A stretch of DNA of 57,478 nt from Chloroflexota bacterium (GTDB taxonomy: Bacteria; Chloroflexota; Anaerolineae; Aggregatilineales; Phototrophicaceae). The DNA lies in the NCBI GenBank assembly GCA_028875185.1, contig JAPPFH010000128.1, positions 1 through 57,478 on the forward strand, given 5' to 3'. The notes beneath the pieces were generated by a model, which did not search any database, was not told where the DNA came from, and saw only the letters and a program-made list of their open reading frames with translations. Positions 141 to 52,312 of the stretch are shown here, in pieces. The stretch's first letter is position 1, and each line of letters begins with the position of its first letter. The position numbers and the translations under genes are program-made.

Positions 141-294
141 CTGAGGACAGGGCAGTTTTGCAGCGAGCGGAATTTCGTCGCAAATTACGTGTTTTCTTAA
201 GCTATTTCGGGCGACCCAGCGCCGCGCGTAGGTCGCGTAGACACTGACCGCCGACACTGCGGTTCAGTCGCCCCTACATCTTTTGCGCTCCGTC

Positions 295-315
295 GGGCGA
301 CTCACCGAGTCGCCC
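295..315. repeat. Dispersed 8-bp-arm hairpin (GGGCGACT/AGTCGCCC)
   Basis: Arms at 295-302 and 308-315 are perfectly complementary around a CACCG loop and are followed by CCTACA. The same hairpin with the same loop recurs at 40443-40463, and variants occur at 18279-18299, 28052-28072 and, degenerate, near 51243. Confidence 0.8.
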
Positions 316-468
316 CTACAATTTCGCACCTGGATTTGCTTGTGATTGGCACATCGAGGCATCCATATCCAATCGGATTAAACCTGTCCTGTCGTCAGTC
401 TTTGTGGGGCGCGCGTAGACACTGCACTACGGCAAGGGGCCGGGTCACGTAGACATAGACCTTCGGGG

Positions 469-10746: not shown

Positions 10747-12204
10747 GTGTCGACACCAGTGGCGCATAGGGTCGCGTGGACACAGACCCGCCGACACTGC
10801 CACCCCAATGTTGTCTTTCTGCTGACGGATCAATGGCGCCTGCATGCGCTTGGATATGCCGGCAACGCCCAGGTGAAAACGCCAAACATTGATCGGCTGG
10901 CGAGCGAAAGTGTCAACTTCAAACATGCGATTTCGGGCTACTCGGTTTGCTGTCCCTGGCGCGCCAGCTTCCTCACCGGGCAATATCCGCTGACGCACGG
11001 CGTGATCGTCAACGACGTACCGATAAGCAGCGAGCCTGTCGGCTTGGGAGAGGCATTCAAAAGCGCCGGTTACAATACCGCCTACATCGGCAAATGGCAT
11101 GTGGACGGCCGCGGGCGCAGCGCCTACATCCCGCCGGAGCGGCGCCTGGGCTTCGAACACTTCAAGGCGCTGGAATGCACGCACGACTACAATCAGTCGG
11201 CTTATTACGACAATGACGACCCAACCATGCGCGCCTGGGATGGCTACGATGTCTTCGCGCAGACGGCTGACGCGCAGCGTTACATCGAATCGCGGAAGTC
11301 GCAGGGTTTACGCGCCACATCGGCCGAAAAGCCCTTCATGCTTGTCCTCTCTTGGGGACCGCCGCACAATCCTTATGAAACCGCGCCAAAAGAATACCGC
11401 GATATGTACAATCCGCGGCACATTGAGCTGCGCCCCAATGTGCCGCCGGAAATGGCGGACGACGCGCGCGAATGGCTGGCCGGCTATTACGCCCATTGCA
11501 GCGCCATCGACAAGTCCGTCGGCGATATCATGAAAACGTTGGACGACAATGGCTTGAGCGACAACACCGTGCTCGTATTCGCTTCCGATCACGGTGACAT
11601 GCTGGGTTCGCATGGCTGGACGCGCAAGCAAAAACCTTGGGAGGAATCGATTCGCGTACCCTTTTTGCTTCGCTACCCAGCTAAATTTGGACCTGCGGCG
11701 CGCGAAGTTTCGCCCTTTCTCAACGCGCACGATATCATGCCGACGCTGCTTGGCATCTGCGGCCTGCCGATACCCAGCAGCGTCGACGGGCGCGATTTCT
11801 CAGCGGCTCTCGCTGGTAAAACGGTTGAAAGCGACGGCGCATTGCTCGCTTGCTTCCACCCCTTCGGCGAGTGGAATCGAATTGTCGGCGGCCACGAATA
11901 TCGCGGCATTCGCACGCCGCGCTATACATATTGCCGATCGCTGTCGCGCGTAGGGTCGCGTGGACACAGACCCGCCGACACGGCCACCTCGGCTGTTCCC
12001 TGGCTGCTCTATGACAACGAAGTCGATCCCTACCAGCTTGAGAATCTCGTCGATGATCCGGCGTACAGCGAAATTCTGGCGCGGCTTGAGGCGCTCTTGC
12101 AGCGTGAACTGGATGCGATTGGCGATGAATTCCTTGATGGAATGTCTTACATCAACAGATGGGGTTATCCCCTGGACGACACCGGCACCGTGCCTTTCCG
12201 TTGA
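10747..12204 (+). CDS. Sulfatase (arylsulfatase A family) interrupted in frame by two repeat copies
   Basis: 485-residue sulfatase of the alkaline phosphatase superfamily. The formylglycine motif C-x-P-x-R is C68-C-P-W-R, followed by SFLTGQYP. Metal-site segments near the N-terminus (LLTDQW), GKWH and FASDHGDMLGSHG are present. The start is GTG with AAAGGA upstream; no alternative in-frame start exists before the sulfatase core. Residues about 6-19 and 401-415 are encoded by two near-identical 43-bp copies of a dispersed repeat read in different frames, and both break expected family alignment (before PNVVFLLTDQWR, and between YTYCRSL and PWLLYDNE). No signal peptide is visible, so it is likely cytoplasmic. 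The frame stays open, so I treat it as a functional gene. Confidence 0.9.
   Translation: MSTPVAHRVAWTQTRRHCHPNVVFLLTDQWRLHALGYAGNAQVKTPNIDRLASESVNFKHAISGYSVCCPWRASFLTGQYPLTHGVIVNDVPISSEPVGLGEAFKSAGYNTAYIGKWHVDGRGRSAYIPPERRLGFEHFKALECTHDYNQSAYYDNDDPTMRAWDGYDVFAQTADAQRYIESRKSQGLRATSAEKPFMLVLSWGPPHNPYETAPKEYRDMYNPRHIELRPNVPPEMADDAREWLAGYYAHCSAIDKSVGDIMKTLDDNGLSDNTVLVFASDHGDMLGSHGWTRKQKPWEESIRVPFLLRYPAKFGPAAREVSPFLNAHDIMPTLLGICGLPIPSSVDGRDFSAALAGKTVESDGALLACFHPFGEWNRIVGGHEYRGIRTPRYTYCRSLSRVGSRGHRPADTATSAVPWLLYDNEVDPYQLENLVDDPAYSEILARLEALLQRELDAIGDEFLDGMSYINRWGYPLDDTGTVPFR
10762..10804 (+). repeat. 43-bp dispersed repeat inside the sulfatase gene, copy 1
   Basis: Begins GCGCATAGGGTCGCGTGGAC and ends GACACTGCCACC. 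It matches the copy at 11946-11988 at 41 of 43 positions by eye. Here it is read as AHRVAWTQTRRHCH, immediately after the GTG start and before the conserved sulfatase core. Confidence 0.9.
11946..11988 (+). repeat. 43-bp dispersed repeat inside the sulfatase gene, copy 2
   Basis: Begins GCGCGTAGGGTCGCGTGGAC and ends GACACGGCCACC. It is read in a different frame from copy 1, giving RVGSRGHRPADTAT, between conserved C-terminal sulfatase segments. GGGTC and GACCC inside the repeat can pair as a short hairpin. Confidence 0.9.
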
Positions 12205-14137: not shown

Positions 14138-15235
14138 CTAGACGGCGGCCGGCGTCAGCATTCGCTTCTTATCGGCATCGACCGCATCGTCATAGAGAAA
14201 GCATTTGACGCTGCGACCTTCATGCACCACGCTCGGCGGTACATTGTCGTGGCAAATGTCCATAACAGCCGGGCAGCGTCCGGCGAATTTGCAGCCGGTG
14301 CGCGTGTACTCATCGGTTTCGATGACTGCTAAATCGATCTTTTCGTTCCAGGCTTCTTCCGACTTGATGTTGGGAATCGAAGTCTTGAGGTTCTGCGTAT
14401 AAGGATGCAATGGATTGCCCAGCACCCGTTCAGTCGGTCCCATCTCGACGATCCAGCCGCGCAGCATCACGGCGATGCGGTCCCCGGTGTAATAAGCGGT
14501 CGCGAGATCATGCGTGATGTAAATGACGCTGACGTTGTTGTCTTCTTTCAGCTTGCGGAACATGTTCACAATCGACATACGCAGTGAGGCGTCCAGCATA
14601 GACACCGGTTCATCAGCGATAATCAGTGAGGGCTTGGTGATCAATGCCCGCGCTATAGCGACGCGCTGCGCCTGCCCGCCAGACAACTCGTTAGGATAGC
14701 GCCCGGCGATCTCCGCCAGCGTCAAGCCAACCGCGCTCAGAACTTCATTGATGTAGCGCGGCGCTTCCTTCTTGTCTGCGACCATTTTGTAATTCTGCGC
14801 TGTCTCATAGAGATAGCTGTCAATACGCTTGAGCGGACTGAAGGCGGCGAAGGGATCCTGGAAGACCGGCTGCACCTCGCGGTAGAACCAGCTCTTCATT
14901 TCCCTGCGGCTGATATCGTTGATGACGCGGTTTTTGTAGCGCAGAATGCCTTCGGATGAGGACTCCATACCCAGCACCATTTTCGCCAATGTGGTCTTGC
15001 CACTGCCGCTTTCGCCCACGACCGCGAAGATCTCCGGTTTGTCCGAATCGATGACGATCGAGGCTTTGTCAACCGCATGAAAATCCTGTGAGGCGAAGCC
15101 CTGCCGAATGTGAAAAACTTTGGTCAGATTCTCAATCTGCAGGAGTGGCGCGTAGACACTGCCACCATGCGGCGCGTGGACACTGCCGCCGCGCCGTTCA
15201 GACCGCGAGTCACGCGTAGACACTGTGGCCTCCAT
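14138..15235 (-). CDS. Peptide/oligosaccharide ABC transporter ATPase, OppF/DppF type
   Basis: 365-residue ATPase, second of the pair in this importer. Walker A (VVGESGSGKTTLAKM), ABC signature (LSGGQAQRVAIARAL), Walker B (LIIADEPVSMLDAS) and the switch histidine (YITHD) are intact. The C-terminal oligopeptide extension has the cysteine cluster C..GRCPAVMDIC expected of this family. The start has a strong GGAGGAG site inside the end of the upstream gene. The first about 31 residues (down to SVYAP) are encoded by three copies of the dispersed repeat and precede the usual domain start LLQIENLTKVF, so this ATPase carries a repeat-made N-terminal extension. Confidence 0.93.
   Translation of the reverse strand: MEATVSTRDSRSERRGGSVHAPHGGSVYAPLLQIENLTKVFHIRQGFASQDFHAVDKASIVIDSDKPEIFAVVGESGSGKTTLAKMVLGMESSSEGILRYKNRVINDISRREMKSWFYREVQPVFQDPFAAFSPLKRIDSYLYETAQNYKMVADKKEAPRYINEVLSAVGLTLAEIAGRYPNELSGGQAQRVAIARALITKPSLIIADEPVSMLDASLRMSIVNMFRKLKEDNNVSVIYITHDLATAYYTGDRIAVMLRGWIVEMGPTERVLGNPLHPYTQNLKTSIPNIKSEEAWNEKIDLAVIETDEYTRTGCKFAGRCPAVMDICHDNVPPSVVHEGRSVKCFLYDDAVDADKKRMLTPAAV
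15148..15230 (+). repeat. Triple copy of the GCGTAGACACTG-type repeat at the oppD/oppF junction
   Basis: Copies at 15148-15166, 15172-15190 and 15213-15230 share the core GCGTrGACACTG. On the minus strand they encode the last residues of the upstream ATPase (HSVYA) and the first residues of the downstream one (TVSTR, SVHAP, SVYAP). The gene overlap itself therefore lies in repeat DNA. Confidence 0.88.
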
Positions 15236-18230: not shown

Positions 18231-18299
18231 TCAGTGTCTACGCGAGCTGACCCCAACAACGGCAACATGCGCGCGTAGGGGCGAGCCGGCGGCTCGCCC
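18231..18299. repeat. Repeat pair between binding-protein and permease genes
   Basis: TCAGTGTCTACGCGAGCTGA at 18231-18250 is a reverse-oriented copy of the GCGTAGACACTG family. At 18279-18299 GGGCGAGCC and GGCTCGCCC form a perfect 9-bp hairpin, flanked by GTAG and GTAC, a variant of the other dispersed hairpin. They fill most of the 162-base gap and may act as an mRNA structure. Confidence 0.75.
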
Positions 18300-23051: not shown

Positions 23052-23848
23052 TAACAGTCATCGGCCGCGGTCACAGCGGCACGCGGACGATTTCGCATAC
23101 GCTCTACGCCTCGGGCGTCTACATGGGTCAGACCTTGAACCCGTCCGGCGATCTGGTGCCGGCGCACGCCATGTACGACGCCTGCCGCGTATTCGCGCGC
23201 TACGTCAAGTGGAATGGCGACCTTAGCTGGGATTTCAGCCGCGCGCACGCCGCCGAGATCCCGCCCGCCTTCACACGCAATCTCAACCGCTATCTGGAAT
23301 CGGTGCTGAATCATTCGCGGCCGCTGAAGGGCTGGAAGGTGCCGGAGACCACGTTGGTCTTCCCCTGGATATTGCGCTTGTACCCGGACATGCACTATAT
23401 TTTTTGGATTCGCAATCCGCGCGATAGCATCATCGGCTCGCATAAAACCGACGACATGCGCGACTTTGGCATCCAGTATCCCGAAACCGATGACGAACGC
23501 CTGCGCCGCGCAATCTCCTGGAAATACCAATACGACTTGGTCAAATCGACGCCCAAGCCGGCGCGCTGGATCGAAGTGCGCTTTGAAGATTTCGTGACCA
23601 ATCAAGACGAGAACCTGGAACGGCTTGAAGATTTCCTAAGTATAAAATTGGCGCGCGTCGTCATGCGGCAAGATACCATCAACCGCTGGCAGCGCGATGA
23701 CGGCGTTAACTATTTCGACTTCTTTGAGCCAGCCATGCGCGAATACAATTACGAAATTCCGCAGCAATCCGCGGCTTTTGCAGGGGCGGCTGACCCGCAG
23801 TGTCCACGCGCGGCGGTGAGTCGTCCGCGAAATGGGGAGCCAGTATGA
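23048..23848 (+). CDS. Sulfotransferase family protein
   Basis: 266 residues from a GTG that overlaps the upstream stop (GTGA). PAPS-binding motifs are visible: the 5'-phosphosulfate loop GRGHSGTRTISHTL at the N-terminus and the 3'-phosphate strand IFWIRNPRDSIIGSHK near residues 118-133. It probably sulfates a sugar or small metabolite. It sits between two paralogous Gfo/Idh/MocA genes and behind a sulfatase-fold gene. The last about 20 residues (AGAADPQCPRAAVSRPRNG, then EPV) are encoded by a copy of the dispersed repeat, which replaces the natural end of the protein. The stop overlaps the next start (ATGA). Confidence 0.83.
   Translation: MITVIGRGHSGTRTISHTLYASGVYMGQTLNPSGDLVPAHAMYDACRVFARYVKWNGDLSWDFSRAHAAEIPPAFTRNLNRYLESVLNHSRPLKGWKVPETTLVFPWILRLYPDMHYIFWIRNPRDSIIGSHKTDDMRDFGIQYPETDDERLRRAISWKYQYDLVKSTPKPARWIEVRFEDFVTNQDENLERLEDFLSIKLARVVMRQDTINRWQRDDGVNYFDFFEPAMREYNYEIPQQSAAFAGAADPQCPRAAVSRPRNGEPV
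23791..23816. repeat. Dispersed repeat copy forming the sulfotransferase C-terminus
   Basis: TGACCCGCAGTGTCCACGCG is nearly the same as 30552-30571 (TGACCCGCAGTGTCTACGCG), where it stands between genes. Here it is translated in frame as ADPQCPRAA. Confidence 0.82.
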
Positions 23849-28002: not shown

Positions 28003-28076
28003 GTAGGGGCGAGCCATTGGGTCGCCCGTAATCGCAAAGAATGCCAGTCGCGGGCGACCTGGTAGGTCGCCCCTAC
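28003..28076. repeat. Two tandem GTAGGGGCGA/TCGCCCCTAC-type hairpins
   Basis: GTAGGGGCGAGCCATTGGGT with TCGCCCGTA makes an imperfect hairpin at 28003-28030, and GGGCGACC (28052-28059) with GGTCGCCC (28065-28072) makes a perfect one. They occupy the gap between rhaA and the aldolase fusion gene and could act as an mRNA processing or stabilising structure. Confidence 0.75.
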
Positions 28077-28099
28077 AATTCACATTTTACGGAGACCGC

Positions 28100-30319: not shown

Positions 30320-30746
30320 ACACCCCAATTATTTGGGCTGTGTTTCGAAATCCGCCCTGTCATACTAAGGGTATCTTACACGCCAGTGGGAGGCGAGTGT
30401 GATGACCCTGTAAGGCTTGTCCGCTACTGGTTGGCACTGCTGTCTCTACACATGGAACAGATTTCTAAAGCTTCACCACAGAGGAAATGAGGAAACACAG
30501 AGGTCACAGAGGGTCATATAGTCGTTTTCAAAACGACGCTGTAGGGGCGTTTGACCCGCAGTGTCTACGCGCGGCGCTGAAACACCCGCTGGCGTATGGA
30601 GTGACGGGAGGGCGAGACAAGGGGCGCGGAGACACCGCCCGTCTCTCGCCCTACAGTGACTTACTTTTGCGTACATTGAGTCACAGTGACTTTGCGGTAG
30701 TGGACAAGCCTTGTATGACCGAGAGTGGCATTTCCGTAGGCCGATA
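30320..30746. other. Intergenic region with several small repeats, no gene
   Basis: No convincing gene. Features seen: a 16-bp inverted pair AAGGCTTGTCCGCTAC (30412-30427) and its complement at 30697-30712 with one mismatch, framing about 300 bases like the ends of a small non-autonomous element; a CACAGAGG-type direct repeat run at 30474-30512; a 17-base palindrome GTCGTTTTCAAAACGAC at 30521-30537; and the paired dispersed repeats at 30539-30576 (GTAGGGGCG, then TGACCCGCAGTGTCTACGCG). Confidence 0.6.
30552..30576 (-). repeat. Intergenic copy of the GCGTAGACACTG-type repeat
   Basis: TGACCCGCAGTGTCTACGCG differs by one base from the copy inside the sulfotransferase gene at 23791-23810. Both are preceded by a GGGGCG block (GTAGGGGCG here, CAGGGGCGG there), showing the two repeat types travel together. 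Confidence 0.8.
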
Positions 30747-35283: not shown

Positions 35284-36579
35284 TTGAGAGCCCTCCCCGC
35301 TTTGGCAATTAGTCGTCTTGTTGCTCCCTTCGCCCTGCTCGCTTGCGTTTGCCTGGCCTCGGCAAGCGCGCAGGATGCGTTCTGCCGCGCTGCCGTTGAG
35401 GATGCTTTGGCCAGCATCGCCCAGAATTGCGCCAACCTGGAGGCGGACAGCCTGTGTTATGGTCATCCTCTCGTGGAAGCCAGCTTCGTGGATGATGCGC
35501 CCGCGGCGGATCTGGGCGCGCCGTCTCAGCGCGCGCCCATCACCAACCTGTCAAGCGTCCGGACCAGCGCGCTAGATTTGGCAGCGGGGCGCTGGGGCAT
35601 CGCAATCCTCAATCTGGGCGCCATGTATCCGCGGACTCACAAAGGACCGGGCATAATCGTAATGCTGGCGGGCGCCGCCGAGATCACCAACGAAATCGAT
35701 CCCGCCTCCGCCCCCCAAATCAGCGAGCCGCTTAGCACAGCGACCTTGGTTGAGACGACCCTGTTCAAGAATCCGGGCATATTGCCTAGACCGCTTGGGA
35801 CGGCGGCTGTGGATGAAATTCTGTTGATTGACGCGACCGACGAAAGCGGGGCTTGGCTGCGCGTCGTCAACGAGGGCAAAGTCGCCTGGGTAGAGCGCGA
35901 TAATGTTGCGCGCCTGAACGCGATGGACTCGCTGCCCGCGATTGGAACTGGCGCCGCCTTTCCCTTTCAGGCGCTGTCGCTAGCCACTGCGGCTGACTTC
36001 CCCGCCTGCGACCAAGCCGAACCGATGATCGCCATTCAGACGCCCGGCGAAATGTCGGTCAATCTTACCGTCAACGGAGTCGATATTCATGTCGGCGCAA
36101 TGGTCACCTTCCAGCAGGCGCATCGCAACGCGCTCAGCATGACCGTGCACCGCGGCGAAGTAACGACCATCTTCGGCCAGACTGTGCGGCAAGGCGAAAG
36201 CGTGATCGGCATTCTTGGTTCGGGGCGCGATGGGAGCGCGCAGGTGCTGGATTGGAGCGGCGCCCTGCCCGTTTCAAATGCGGAGTATGCGCGCGGTAAG
36301 CGCGCGCAGACGGCTCTCAATGAACTTGCCCGCGTCAACGGCTGGCCCGAGCACAAAACTTTCAGACACCGGCCGGCGCTGGTGCATGTGGTGGAGCGCG
36401 GCGAATCCCTGTATAGCATTGGCAGACGCTACGACACCAGCGTCGCCGAAATCATCCTAGCCAACCTTGGCGACGAACCGATTAGACTTTATAGAGGCAC
36501 CAAGCTAGTCATTCCAAACCCCGGCAGCGGCTTCGCCGGGCGCGGCTCGGTTCCACTGGACGCCACCCGCGACGAATAG
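35284..36579 (+). CDS. Secreted LysM-domain protein
   Basis: About 431 residues from a TTG start; no in-frame ATG precedes the signal peptide, so the start is the best guess. Residues 1-30 form a signal peptide (LVAPFALLACVCLASASAQ, cleavage before DAFC). A middle section around 185-215 (EILLIDATDESGAWLRVVN) looks like an SH3-type cell-wall domain. A clear LysM repeat sits near the end (VVERGESLYSIGRRYDTSV ... LYRGTKLVIPNPG). It likely binds glycan at the cell surface. The final GFAGRGSVPLDATRDE tail is duplicated at 37833-37881 by the segmental duplication described separately. Confidence 0.75.
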   Translation: MRALPALAISRLVAPFALLACVCLASASAQDAFCRAAVEDALASIAQNCANLEADSLCYGHPLVEASFVDDAPAADLGAPSQRAPITNLSSVRTSALDLAAGRWGIAILNLGAMYPRTHKGPGIIVMLAGAAEITNEIDPASAPQISEPLSTATLVETTLFKNPGILPRPLGTAAVDEILLIDATDESGAWLRVVNEGKVAWVERDNVARLNAMDSLPAIGTGAAFPFQALSLATAADFPACDQAEPMIAIQTPGEMSVNLTVNGVDIHVGAMVTFQQAHRNALSMTVHRGEVTTIFGQTVRQGESVIGILGSGRDGSAQVLDWSGALPVSNAEYARGKRAQTALNELARVNGWPEHKTFRHRPALVHVVERGESLYSIGRRYDTSVAEIILANLGDEPIRLYRGTKLVIPNPGSGFAGRGSVPLDATRDE

Positions 36580-36635
36580 GCGGGCGTAGAGAGCGCCAGC
36601 AAGACTGCAAGTCTTCAATCTTCACGAAACGCTCT

Positions 36636-37559
36636 TCACGATACGCTGCGCTTCAACATATCGACGAATGCGGACCGGTCGGCGCTGGTCGCCACGCGCA
36701 TCTGCGGCGCGCGCTTGCCCACGCCGAGTACGTCTACCACCGTTATGCCGCGCGCCAAGCCCTCGCCCGTCGTTACATCGACGCGATAATTCTCGAATTC
36801 AGCGATGCTCGGATCAATCGCCGCCGCCATCGTGATCGGATCGGGCAAGTCAAAGCCAGGCAGCGCATTCTCCGTCATCGAGAATTCGGTCAGGGCGGGT
36901 TGGATATCAATAACAAATTCCGCCAGCGCCGTGCCGATGCGGCGGATCTCGTCGGCTTGCTCGGCGTCAAAAGTGGCGTATTTCCAGGAGATATCCCAGC
37001 CAACCATGGTCATCTTCATGCCCGACTCGTAAACGATTTTCGCCGCCTCCGGATCCACCCAGATGTTGTATTCCGCCGTCGGCGTCACATTGCCGTGGCC
37101 CGTGCCGATGCCGCCCATAATCCAACAGTGGGATACCCGCTGCGCCAGTTCCGGCTCTCGCAGCAAAGCAAGCGCGACATTGGTCAAAGGTCCCAGCGCC
37201 ACCAAGGTGATATCGCCGGCGTTCGCATTGATGACATCACGCAGCGCATCGGCGGCATGACCCTTCGCCGGTATCCGCCCCTGCAAGGGCAAGCCGATAT
37301 CGCCCAATCCGGAGTGCCCGTTCAAATCCTGCGCCGTCTCCAGATCGCGCAGCAGCGGCTTGGCGCAGCCAGCATACACGGGCGCGTCAGCGCCGCAAAG
37401 CTCAACGGTGTAAAGCGCATTCTGAACGCCCAGCGGCACAGGCACGTTGCCAGCAACCACCGTAATCGCCTTGACGTCGATGTCCGGCTTCCGCAGCGCC
37501 ATGACCAAGGCGACAGCGTCATCGCAAGCGTTGTCGGTGTCGATGATAAATTTTCGCAT
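36636..37559 (-). CDS. Inosine-uridine-type nucleoside hydrolase, copy 1
   Basis: 307 residues from the ATG at 37559; the frame stays open further upstream but GGAGAAG before 37559, and the paired copy, fix this start. It hydrolyses the N-glycosidic bond of nucleosides in the IunH/DeoD-unrelated family. The calcium site motif near the N-terminus is DTDNACDDAVAL (family DTDxGxDDxxA), followed by ALGPLTNVALAL and a later MVGWDIS segment. It is about nine-tenths identical to copy 2 by eye. The extra copy is likely to raise dose or be free to diverge. Confidence 0.92.
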   Translation of the reverse strand: MRKFIIDTDNACDDAVALVMALRKPDIDVKAITVVAGNVPVPLGVQNALYTVELCGADAPVYAGCAKPLLRDLETAQDLNGHSGLGDIGLPLQGRIPAKGHAADALRDVINANAGDITLVALGPLTNVALALLREPELAQRVSHCWIMGGIGTGHGNVTPTAEYNIWVDPEAAKIVYESGMKMTMVGWDISWKYATFDAEQADEIRRIGTALAEFVIDIQPALTEFSMTENALPGFDLPDPITMAAAIDPSIAEFENYRVDVTTGEGLARGITVVDVLGVGKRAPQMRVATSADRSAFVDMLKRSVS

Positions 37560-37636: not shown

Positions 37637-37881
37637 CCGCTCCCGATGAAGGCAGCATGAATTTGCTGCGCAATTGGGCGAACGAAGAACATACCGAGCG
37701 CTATCTTGTGCCGCTGCCGAAGGGTGAGACTTTCTCCGCCTTTTCCATGACTGAGCCGCCAGGCGCCGGCAGCGACCCACGCATGATCCAGACGCGCGCC
37801 ATCCGCGATGTGCCGGTGATGGGAATCAAGGACTTCGCCGGGCGCGGCTCGGTTCCGCTGGACGCCACCCGCGACGAATAG
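37637..37881 (+). pseudogene. Broken acyl-CoA dehydrogenase fragment fused to LysM-gene tail
   Basis: Bases 37637-37830 match the intact acyl-CoA dehydrogenase gene at about 39299-39662 (HCAAPDEG, LLRNWANEE, FSAFSMTEPP, GSDPRMIQTRA), but the first 90 or so codons are missing. A 165-base (55-codon) block corresponding to 39476-39640 is gone at a GCGAT microhomology. At 37831 the frame passes into the duplicated LysM-gene tail (FAGRGSVPLDATRDE, stop at 37881). It is a relic of the duplication and not expected to make a working enzyme. Confidence 0.88.
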
Positions 37882-37937
37882 GCGGGCGTAGCGAGCGCCA
37901 GCAAGACTGCAAGTCTTCAATCTTCACGAAACGCGCT

Positions 37938-38861
37938 TCACGAAACGCTACGCTTCAACATATCGACGAATGCGGACCGGGCGGCGCTGGTCGCCACGCG
38001 CATCTGCGGCGCGCGCTTGCCCACACCGCGTACGTCTACCACCGTTATGCCGCGCGCCAAGCCCTCGCCCGTCGTTACATCGACGCGATAATTCTCGAAT
38101 TCAGCGATGCTCGGATCAATCGCCGCCGCCATCGTGATCGGATCGGGCAAGTCAAAGCCAGGCAGCGCGTTTTCCGTCATCGAGAATTCCGTCAAGGTCG
38201 CCTGGATATCCACGACGAATTCCGCCAGCCTTGTGCCGACGCCGCGGATTTCTGCCGCTTGCTCGGCGTCAAAAGTGGCGTATTTCCAGGAGATATCCCA
38301 GCCGACCATCGTCATCTTCATGCCCGATTCGTATACAATCTTCGCCGCTTCCGGATCGACCCAAATGTTGAATTCCGCCGTCGGCGTCACATTGCCATGA
38401 CCGGCGCCAATGCCGCCCATGATCCAGCAATGCGACACCCTCTGCGCCAACTCAGGCTCGCGCAGCAGCGCCAGCGCCACATTCGTCAATGGTCCAAGCG
38501 TGACCAGAGTGATGTCGCCGGCGTTCGCATTGATGACATCGCGCAGCACATCGGCGGCGTGTCCTCTCGCTGGCGCGCGCCCCTGCAAGGGCAAGCCGAT
38601 ATCGCCCAAGCCATCGCGCCCGTGCACATCCTGCGCCGTCTCCAATTCGCGCAGTAAAGGCTTGGCGCAGCCGGCGTAAACTGGCGTATCGGCGCCGCAT
38701 AGCTCTACCGTGTACAAGGCATTTTGAATGCCCATTTCCAGCGGCACATTGCCCGCGACCACTGTGATTGCCTTGACGTCGATGTCCGGCTGCCGCAGAG
38801 CCATGACCAACGCGACCGCGTCATCCGAGGCGGTATCCGTATCGATGATGAAGTTTCGCAT
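37938..38861 (-). CDS. Inosine-uridine-type nucleoside hydrolase, copy 2
   Basis: 307 residues, same length as copy 1. The N-terminal calcium motif reads DTDTASDDAVAL, slightly different from copy 1 in the two middle residues. GPLTNVALALLREPELAQ and CWIMGGIGAGHGNVTP are shared. GGAGAAG precedes the ATG. It is divergently placed from the intact acyl-CoA dehydrogenase gene, which is the ancestral arrangement of this block. Changes between copies are mostly conservative, so both are probably active. Confidence 0.92.
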   Translation of the reverse strand: MRNFIIDTDTASDDAVALVMALRQPDIDVKAITVVAGNVPLEMGIQNALYTVELCGADTPVYAGCAKPLLRELETAQDVHGRDGLGDIGLPLQGRAPARGHAADVLRDVINANAGDITLVTLGPLTNVALALLREPELAQRVSHCWIMGGIGAGHGNVTPTAEFNIWVDPEAAKIVYESGMKMTMVGWDISWKYATFDAEQAAEIRGVGTRLAEFVVDIQATLTEFSMTENALPGFDLPDPITMAAAIDPSIAEFENYRVDVTTGEGLARGITVVDVRGVGKRAPQMRVATSAARSAFVDMLKRSVS

Positions 38862-40213: not shown

Positions 40214-40683
40214 ACGCTGTAACCGAATCAATACCATTCGAGTAGATTCAATGACAGCCGCTAAACTGAAATCTCCAGAATTTTGCGAAGTCTGTAGCTA
40301 TGCGCGCGGCTATGCCGCCAGATACGCAAAATACTTTGTATCCCGCTGCATTTAGCTCCCCTTTCTCTTTATGGCTGACGACAGGACAGTTTTTCAGCGA
40401 GCAAAATGTCGTCGCGAATGCAGCATTTTGTTGGGAGTTTTCGGGCGACTCACCGAGTCGCCCCTACAATTTTCGCTAAGAAAGAAGCTATTGAAGTCTA
40501 ACGTGAACCATTTATGACCTATTAGACCAAACCTGTCCTGGCATCAGCTCTTTATGGGGAAGGGGGCCCGGGATGGAGGTCTGCCGCCGGATACGCAATC
40601 AGTGGCGGCTCGGTGGCTCGCCCGCTCTCGCCCGTGCAAAAGTATTTTATTTCGCAAGATTGACTGCGAACTGTCGAGACGTC
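40214..40683. other. Intergenic mosaic repeat region, no gene
   Basis: No gene is supported. Bases 40358-40450 resemble 120-215 (CCCTTTCTCTTTATGGCTGA against the CCTTCCCTCCTTGTGGGCTG version, then CAGTTTTTCAGCGAGC). Bases 40443-40463 are the GGGCGACT/AGTCGCCC hairpin with the same CACCG loop as 295-315. Bases 40530-40558 resemble 380-408 (ACCTGTCCTGnCnTCAG then TTTnTGGGG). The TIR gene frame stays open back to 40573, but that part reads through repeat DNA. Confidence 0.7.
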
Positions 40684-51209: not shown

Positions 51210-51265
51210 AATCGTCCCTGGCTCGTATTAGCGGAGAATCCCGCGGGCGACTCGTCGAGTCACTC

Positions 51266-52312
51266 CTAGATCGCTCCATAAGGTCCGTCGGTTGATTGCA
51301 GCAGCCGCTCGAAGCGATCATAAATTTCCGACTTCGCGTCGAAGACGTAATTCGGCCGCGTTACAATGATGTCGGTCCCGCCAAGATCCCGCAGGTGTTG
51401 CATCGTCTTGTGTATCAGATCGGACTGCACGAGGAGCGTGGTTTCAAACCAGCGCCGCTCCGCGCCCGGCGGGCTGGCTACGGCGACGACGCCCGGCCCC
51501 TTCGTGCCGCTCAGCGCTGGGTTGGCGAGGATGCGCCCCTGCACTTCGGCGATTGTTTCGCCGGCGATATTGGCGCGCAGCGAAACATACTGACGCGCCC
51601 GGCGGTGGGCTTCAATCAATTCGAGCATTTCGCGCAGCGTTTCCAGTTTTTTGGACGATTGTCGCATTGTGCGACGATTGGCGATCAGGACCGCTTCTGA
51701 GGCGATGATCGTACCGCCATCGATGGGCCGCAGTTGATTCTCGCGCAATGTCGTACCGGTTTCCGACAAGTCCGCGATCAAATCAGCGTAGCCCATTCGC
51801 GGCGCCGCTTCCATCGCGCCCTCGGCATGCACCAAAAGAAAGTGTGAAATCCCCTTTTGGTACATATAGCTCTTAACCAGATTGCTGTATTTCGTCGCGA
51901 TCCGCAGTTGGGCGCCGCGCGCTTGACTGCGCAGGCTCAGATCGGCCAGGTCGGCGATTGAAGCCACATCAATCCATGAATCGGGAACCGCCAGCAGCAA
52001 TTCGCAGCGGCCGAAGCCGAGCCGGTCTATCACCATGATATCGGCATGATCCTCGCCATACTCCAAAACATTGTCCAAGCCGGTTACGCCAATATCAGCC
52101 AACCCGTCCGCAACCTTGCTGACGATATCGCGCGGGCGCTGCAACACGACGGCGGCGGCTGGCAAGCTGGGAATCGTCGCCGTATACTGCCGGCGGTTCG
52201 GCTTGACAATGTTCAAGCCCGCCCGACCGAAGAATTTGTCGGCTGCTTCGCCCAAGCGCCCCTTGCTCGGCAAGGCGACAATAAGGTTTTCCGCGGAGGA
52301 CAAGTCAGTCAT
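51266..52312 (-). CDS. hisG: ATP phosphoribosyltransferase, long form
   Basis: 348 residues from the ATG at 52312, inside the end of hisS (8-base overlap); an upstream ATG is not supported. It catalyses the first step of histidine synthesis. The substrate fold shows ALPSKGRLGEAADKFF, DIGVTGLDNVLEYG and the PRPP loop DLIADLSETGTTLRENQL. A C-terminal regulatory domain is present from about residue 270 (SGTKGPGVVAVAS to NYVFDAKSEI), so this is the long, HisZ-independent and probably histidine-inhibited form. It is translated with the HisRS gene. Confidence 0.9.
   Translation of the reverse strand: MTDLSSAENLIVALPSKGRLGEAADKFFGRAGLNIVKPNRRQYTATIPSLPAAAVVLQRPRDIVSKVADGLADIGVTGLDNVLEYGEDHADIMVIDRLGFGRCELLLAVPDSWIDVASIADLADLSLRSQARGAQLRIATKYSNLVKSYMYQKGISHFLLVHAEGAMEAAPRMGYADLIADLSETGTTLRENQLRPIDGGTIIASEAVLIANRRTMRQSSKKLETLREMLELIEAHRRARQYVSLRANIAGETIAEVQGRILANPALSGTKGPGVVAVASPPGAERRWFETTLLVQSDLIHKTMQHLRDLGGTDIIVTRPNYVFDAKSEIYDRFERLLQSTDGPYGAI

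Follow-up and report, generated by a model that had tools for sequence, protein, structure and literature searches.

The window, by which we mean the whole 57,478-nucleotide stretch of contig JAPPFH010000128.1 from a Chloroflexota bacterium (assembly GCA_028875185.1), contains a sulfatase gene with two inserts of a dispersed repeat (Table 1). The predicted protein matched the Pfam families Sulfatase (PF00884, E 8.6e-54) and SGSH_C (PF16347). The gene is under constraint, because dN/dS was 0.09-0.14 at a dS of 0.76-1.05 in the comparisons computed with seven relatives. The original prediction had paired bases 10762-10804 with 11946-11988, and these 43-base stretches were indeed identical at 41 of 43 positions and lay inside one uninterrupted sulfatase open reading frame (ORF). 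The 43-mer had been mistaken for the repeat unit, which is 24 nt long; each insert is 48 nt and consists of an outer unit whose loop holds a second unit. We fixed the edges of both 48-nt inserts using the unit model and the empty sites in relatives. As predicted, the stretch separating the first insert from the conserved core has no in-frame ATG, GTG or TTG, and the first insert is therefore translated if the sulfatase gene is.

Table 1. Positions of the sulfatase gene, the ABC transporter gene, repeat units and loops in the window.
Feature	Position	Strand	Remarks
Loop of a copy nested in another copy, outside recognised genes	235..245	+	context L017
Loop without a perfect stem	413..423	+	
Sulfatase gene with both inserts	10747..12204	+	ORF 485 aa, GTG start; Pfam PF00884, PF16347
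Site A insert, 48 nt: outer GTGGC-GCATA...GACACT-GCCAC-CCC and one nested unit	10759..10806	+	
Site A inner 24-nt unit, GGGTC-GCGTGGACACA-GACCC-GCC	10769..10792	+	from comparison with G088 (outer unit only); loop 10774-10784
Site E insert, 48 nt: outer GTCGC-GCGTA...GACACG-GCCAC-CTC (one stem mismatch) and one nested unit	11943..11990	+	
Site E inner 24-nt unit, identical to the site A inner unit	11953..11976	+	from the sequence; loop 11958-11968
ABC transporter ATPase, first codons formed by three antisense units	14138..15235	-	Pfam ABC_tran, oligo_HPY
Unit GTGGC-GCGTAGACACT-GCCAC-CAT, antisense to the ABC ATPase	15145..15168	+	
Unit GCGGC-GCGTGGACACT-GCCGC-CGC, directly after the preceding unit	15169..15192	+	
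Unit GTCAC-GCGTAGACACT-GTGGC-CTC, one stem mismatch	15209..15232	+	perfect GTCAC/GTGAC in relatives
Loop of a copy	18233..18243	-	
Loop of a copy near the 3' end of a sulfotransferase ORF	23799..23809	-	4-bp stem CCGC
Loop of a copy	30560..30570	-	

A structure model of the sulfatase, built from 25 of 31 aligned sequences, had a modest mean pLDDT of 65.2, with both inserts below 50 and the site E insert placed between two strands. The predicted positions of the inserts fit tolerated loops of the protein, which does not imply activity. A further 24-nt segment at window 11297-11320 was present only in the window sulfatase among the aligned genes; it has no clear unit and is perhaps a decayed one.

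Each unit consists of a stem arm, an 11-nt loop (GCGTRGACACW), the opposite stem arm and a 3-nt tail. Its length is 2s+14 nt for a stem of s base pairs, such that a 4-bp stem gives a 22-nt unit and a 5-bp stem a 24-nt unit. The loop was fixed, while the stem varied with compensating changes. We read 156 distinct loops of the 281 in the window's own genome, and 132 had a perfect stem of at least 4 bp. Stem counts on all 156 are biased, as many pieces were retrieved via a pattern including part of the stem. For this reason, we performed a separate stem test on 44 loops that were retrieved by the loop alone (those of the window and L154-L193). Stems of at least 4 bp, of eleven kinds, were found in 31 of them, compared with a mean of 5.0 and a maximum of 11 in 1000 rounds of shuffling the right flanks. 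The 44 loops comprised 35 distinct 21-mers, for which 89.3% of cells paired (52.9% when shuffled) and the covariation score was 0.749, versus 0.173 when shuffled and at most 0.186 when slid. Two of five covariation measures were no better than shuffles (both-side pair changes, 98/500; further pair types, 175/500), and neither was DNA folding of four single sequences (z of -1.59, -0.08, +0.69 and -0.39). Evolutionary evidence supports the predicted hairpin, which is weak.

In the window's own genome, the loop occurred 281 times, as opposed to 3 times for the reversed control, and GTCGCGTRGACACWG with at most one mismatch occurred 188 times, as opposed to 3 for the reversed pattern, implying the repeats are not due to chance. 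About nine further copies had been predicted in the window, which holds ten exact loops and hence eight beyond the two reported. Loop counts across the 34 genomes of the genus ranged from 0 (G076) to 287 (G068) and exceeded three times their own control in 30, the exceptions being G062, G063, G076 and G083. A longer pattern was found in 33 of these 34 genomes and in 3 of 64 other genomes of the family, once in each. Order-wide (154 genomes), loops outside the genus were mostly near or below control, with small excesses in G042 (45 versus 14), G028 (30 versus 7), G056 (14 versus 4), G020 (13 versus 6) and G110 (11 versus 2). Named genomes contained 13 stretches matching GGTCGCGTGGACACAGACC, of which 12 were in metagenome-assembled genomes (MAGs) titled Chloroflexi or Anaerolineae. 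The thirteenth, in a Mycobacterium record (L134), was a single 19-mer on its own, and we took it as chance. Judging from their isolate codes, the Chloroflexi and Anaerolineae MAGs are presumably sponge symbionts. Viral contigs yielded zero exact matches to GGTCGCGTAGACACWGACC, the sole pattern tried, and we rejected viral carriage of the repeat on this basis. Local GC skew revealed no strand bias (51 of 114 copies on the G-rich strand) in a test that excluded window copies, pieces shorter than 2000 bases and skews below 0.01.

We searched 98 genomes of the family and found sulfatases in 97. Besides the window's own gene, the 30 returned sulfatase loci that we aligned included 29 relatives, a single one of them from outside the genus. 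Site A was empty in 27 of the 30 genes and site E in 29, in agreement with the expectation that the family would have no extra sequence at either point. Where it was occupied, site A held 24 nt in G088, 48 nt in the window genome and 96 nt in G085. The 24 nt of G088 are the outer unit alone, GTGGC-GCGTAGACAGT-GCCAC plus 3 nt. In the window genome a second unit of the GGGTC type lies within the outer loop, and in G085 three units of this type, one inside another, lie within the outer unit. A tree built from the sulfatase core grouped G085 with G075 (support 1.0) and G088 with G068 (0.956), deeper supports being low, and site A was empty in both G075 and G068. This patchy distribution may reflect repeated gain, exact loss or recombination.

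Relatives also carried inserts elsewhere in the sulfatase. One orthologue (L129; JAPOYS010000147.1, isolate COS4_bin_41) had 48 nt at a different site, after 11023, and a second insert of 24 nt near 12047 (CTGCC-GCGTGGACACT-GGCAG-CCC). Near 11820, 51-nt inserts with partial units were found in L068 and L129. All inserts in the sulfatase orthologues were multiples of three, and those made of clear units were multiples of 24. The near-universal empty orthologue sites, together with the 188 genome copies, support the earlier proposal that a dispersed repeat has inserted into coding sequence without disturbing the frame. None of the aligned homologues had the same residues at both sites, and the repeats were not confined to this gene within the genome. 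Palindromes of another type, 39 nt long and in frame, were seen near 11820 in the orthologues L045, L046 and L052 (from G088, G068 and G067).

Given that the genome is a 158-contig draft with several loops at contig ends, we considered whether the repeats could be an artefact of assembling draft metagenome genomes. However, in-frame copies within genes and nested copies recur across assemblers' contig names (COS4_bin_41, COS4_bin_42 and jk18xAbins.45), making an artefact extremely improbable.

ORFs of at least 100 aa spanned 62 of the 156 loops, although many such ORFs are surely spurious. We scanned 19 of the loop-spanning ORFs from the window's own genome, and one from L136, against Pfam. 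A domain was found in 10 of the 19. The five loops in the sulfatase or inside GCV_T, S-Me-THD and GH116 domains all had 5-bp stems and thus 24-nt units. In the other six domain-bearing ORFs, the loops were terminal or outside the domain; two had 5-bp stems, three had 4-bp stems and one had no stem. Within this group of six, our comparison with relatives covered the ABC ATPase. Terminal loops with a 4-bp stem (three) or no stem (one) may be non-coding or frame-breaking. The ORF from L136, a second sulfatase, contained a nested pair of units.

In an alignment of 30 GCV_T genes, G000 and G088 each had one clean 24-nt insert and G071 had two, all at different places, and G085 had a nested 48-nt insert with the inner stem GGGGC. 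The genes with inserts were open through to the stop. Relative to gap-aligned empty sites, the GCV_T inserts were exactly 24 nt; a target-site duplication of at least 2 bp, as in MITEs, was not found, a 1-base duplication (G) being indistinguishable. The window genome's own S-Me-THD gene had 24 extra nucleotides inside a 21-nt palindrome, which G075 and G062 have without the insert. At the start of the ABC ATPase, relatives had between 0 and 3 units (22 of 29 loci readable). Some ABC ATPase starts have other palindromes instead, and other palindromes occur in frame in S-Me-THD as well. The copies in GCV_T, S-Me-THD and the ABC ATPase led us to reject the idea that the inserts are a trait of the window sulfatase alone.

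A loop far better conserved than its stem might also be a putative binding site of the host, in DNA or RNA, that is kept by selection and whose insertion is incidental. This is improbable in view of the exact empty sites, the copies within four gene families and a copy number varying from 0 to 287 inside one genus.

The 24-nt unit corresponds to eight codons. Because 10 nt of it precede the entry point, reading moves on by one base with every further level of nesting. Both orientations of the unit were found within genes. A unit carrying TAG and CTGACC meets stops in two of the three sense frames; that of the sulfatase (TGG, CAGACC) is stop-free in sense, and neither form has antisense stops.

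We defined self-nesting as GAC following the tail. By this definition, 43 of the 156 loops read belonged to self-nested copies, 35 of which follow GCGTA and the remainder close variants, placing the entry point in the element's own loop at GCGTA^GACAC. Only the sulfatase pair measured 24 nt; the other 41 of the 43 self-nested units in the window's own genome were 22 nt long. Sixteen of the 41 overlapped an ORF of at least 100 aa, and the three of these that were scanned (L007, L016 and L101) had no Pfam match. Nested 24-nt units also occurred in other genomes outside recognised genes (L138 and L139), for which reason we interpret the frame rule as the outcome of selective filtering.

Inner and outer stems usually differed (e.g., GGGTC in GTGGC, GGTC in CCGC and GGGGC in GGGTC), which argues that inner copies come from elsewhere. 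This bears on whether units multiply locally by replication slippage or template switching at hairpins. The three nearly alike inner units of G085 and the likeness of the two own sulfatase copies (41 of 43) would be in keeping with local multiplication, but an inner unit with a stem unlike the outer is no copy of its host, and we reason that tandem slippage should yield the order LRLR rather than LLRR. We consider local multiplication to have little probability.

Among the 88 copies that were not self-nested, 34 lay in a palindrome of at least 6 bp once the unit was removed, compared with 11.3 for shuffled partners, a control that is itself raised by recurring palindromes. The target looks like a loop, often the element's own, yet more than half of the 88 copies were without such a palindrome. 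The bases preceding these copies were far more commonly CG, TG, AG, GG or GA than TA.

Other repeats were present alongside the units. A second palindrome family, of the GGGCGACTC...GAGTCGCCCCTACA type, occurs at window 293-324, 40441-40472, 28050-28081 and 51243-51274, with two of the four copies identical across 32 nt, and small units were often placed in the loops of its members. The 39-nt palindrome inserted in the sulfatase orthologues L045, L046 and L052 is of this type. Five loci (L022, L074, L114, L116 and L119) had a unit (GCGTGGACACT) at one place in a longer CACAGAG-rich dispersed repeat, which seems to have been copied together with its unit. The window also has a 300-nt direct repeat (36531-36830 and 37833-38132, 97% identical) that is a recent tandem gene duplication, with more repeats around it.

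We considered which proteins might move the repeat. Matches to PF01797 were found in 15 of the 34 genus genomes, but were strong only in G063, with weaker matches in the 14 others mostly in ORFs over 600 aa or partial. Matches to PF00078 were found in 7 of the 34. Neither family was related to copy number among these 34 draft genomes, and we rejected both the RAYT (PF01797) and the reverse transcriptase (PF00078) as movers. RVT_1 was observed in open frames of 853-993 aa at G000:C95:3822-4331 (L151) and in six other genus genomes.

These results weigh on two explanations in which a known kind of enzyme spreads the copies. The first is a REP family moved by a RAYT, a Y1 HUH transposase, as with GTAG-tagged REPs, some of which are in genes. 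Small dispersed palindromes with some copies in genes are what is reported for REPs (PMC3733652, section 15), and self-nesting places units after GTAG. Nevertheless, the one genome with a strong PF01797 match has only 5 loops, and the bases preceding non-self-nested units imply there is no GTAG tag, so we regard a RAYT as unlikely. The second is an RNA intermediate spread by a reverse transcriptase, consistent with a fixed loop and compensated stem that fit an RNA hairpin and with the occurrence of both orientations in genes. However, the loop-rich genomes G085 and G088 were without PF00078 and G083, with one loop, had it. A missed or unusual reverse transcriptase is possible, and we consider this route rather unlikely.

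Instead, the dispersal, common unit construction, nesting and in-frame lengths that we observed, together with sites precisely empty in relatives, lead us to believe that the repeat is probably a very small mobile hairpin that nests in itself. It would be akin to the SDR elements of cyanobacteria, and its 24-nt form would be tolerated by genes. New copies would enter loops, chiefly the element's own at GCGTA^GACAC, resulting in Russian-doll nesting. Since PF01797 and PF00078 do not track copy number, we infer a trans-acting enzyme that would act on single-stranded DNA or RNA, recognising the loop and placing the copy. Within genes, only inserts that keep the frame would persist. The 24-nt form would do so at each level of nesting, provided that the variant and orientation are free of stops and the protein tolerates the place. 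Selection on the reading frame may thereby explain why units in genes are 24 nt.

Rolling-circle Rep proteins introduce nicks within origin loops. By analogy, a more speculative and somewhat doubtful possibility is a minimal transposition system of a new kind, in which a putative enzyme nicks and joins at the fixed loop point GCGTA^GACAC. If so, the 11-nt loop would both mark the mobile unit and serve as its target, and the system would act on proteins as a ratchet adding eight residues per event.

Our results extend very small self-nesting repeats to Chloroflexota. Repeats within constrained genes form a graded series of 0, 24, 48 and 96 nt across related species, offering a simple route for proteins to gain segments, eight residues a step. 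To our knowledge, how repeats of about 22 nt spread is unsolved. An invariant loop, a freely varying stem and a constant entry point together provide a precise signature for seeking the enzyme that moves them.

Several known systems share features with the repeat. Chloroflexi are named among the hosts of GTAG repeats, and REPs are also found inside genes (PMC3733652). GTAG- and CGTC-tagged REPs are likewise small palindromes in both intergenic regions and genes (PMC3733652). In contrast, the 88 non-self-nested copies here lacked a terminal GTAG or CGTC tag, and strong RAYT matches were absent from the copy-rich draft genomes. The repeat self-nests, whereas the word 'nested' does not appear in PMC3733652. 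Hairpin elements of sponge mitochondria are also small and dispersed with a few copies in coding regions, but their stems are conserved and their loops vary (PMC2800124), the reverse of what we observed. Rickettsia palindromic elements (RPEs), to which the repeat had been likened, are dispersed palindromes of 105-146 bp located in frame within conserved protein genes (PMC2229807). The likeness holds for dispersal and for in-frame insertion and reading within conserved proteins. It does not extend to length (24 nt per unit), to the varying stem or to self-nesting, which is absent from the RPE description excerpted from PMC2229807.

Judged by title or the start of the abstract, the repeat was not described in the open-access full-text literature searched. 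Hence, as far as these searches show, this repeat family, in which the loop is fixed, the stem is free and units nest within coding sequence, is new. Elhai and colleagues reportedly described, in 2008 (Genome Res. 18:1484), dispersed SDRs of 21-27 nt in Nostoc and its relatives that form hairpins with compensating changes. Some SDR copies, of SDR1 and SDR4, are said to be nested in their own copies. The Chloroflexota repeat resembles this description in size (22 or 24 nt), self-nesting and a hairpin with compensating changes, though its single-sequence folding does not exceed shuffles. Unlike SDRs, it belongs to a different phylum, has a fixed 11-nt loop with a free stem, is entered in the loop and nests inside protein-coding sequence. 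The Nostoc study is cited in PMC3116915 and PMC4390886, the latter giving an exact insertion point of SDR5 in HIP1. In size, structure and self-nesting, the Chloroflexota repeat would appear closer to the cyanobacterial SDRs than to RPEs.
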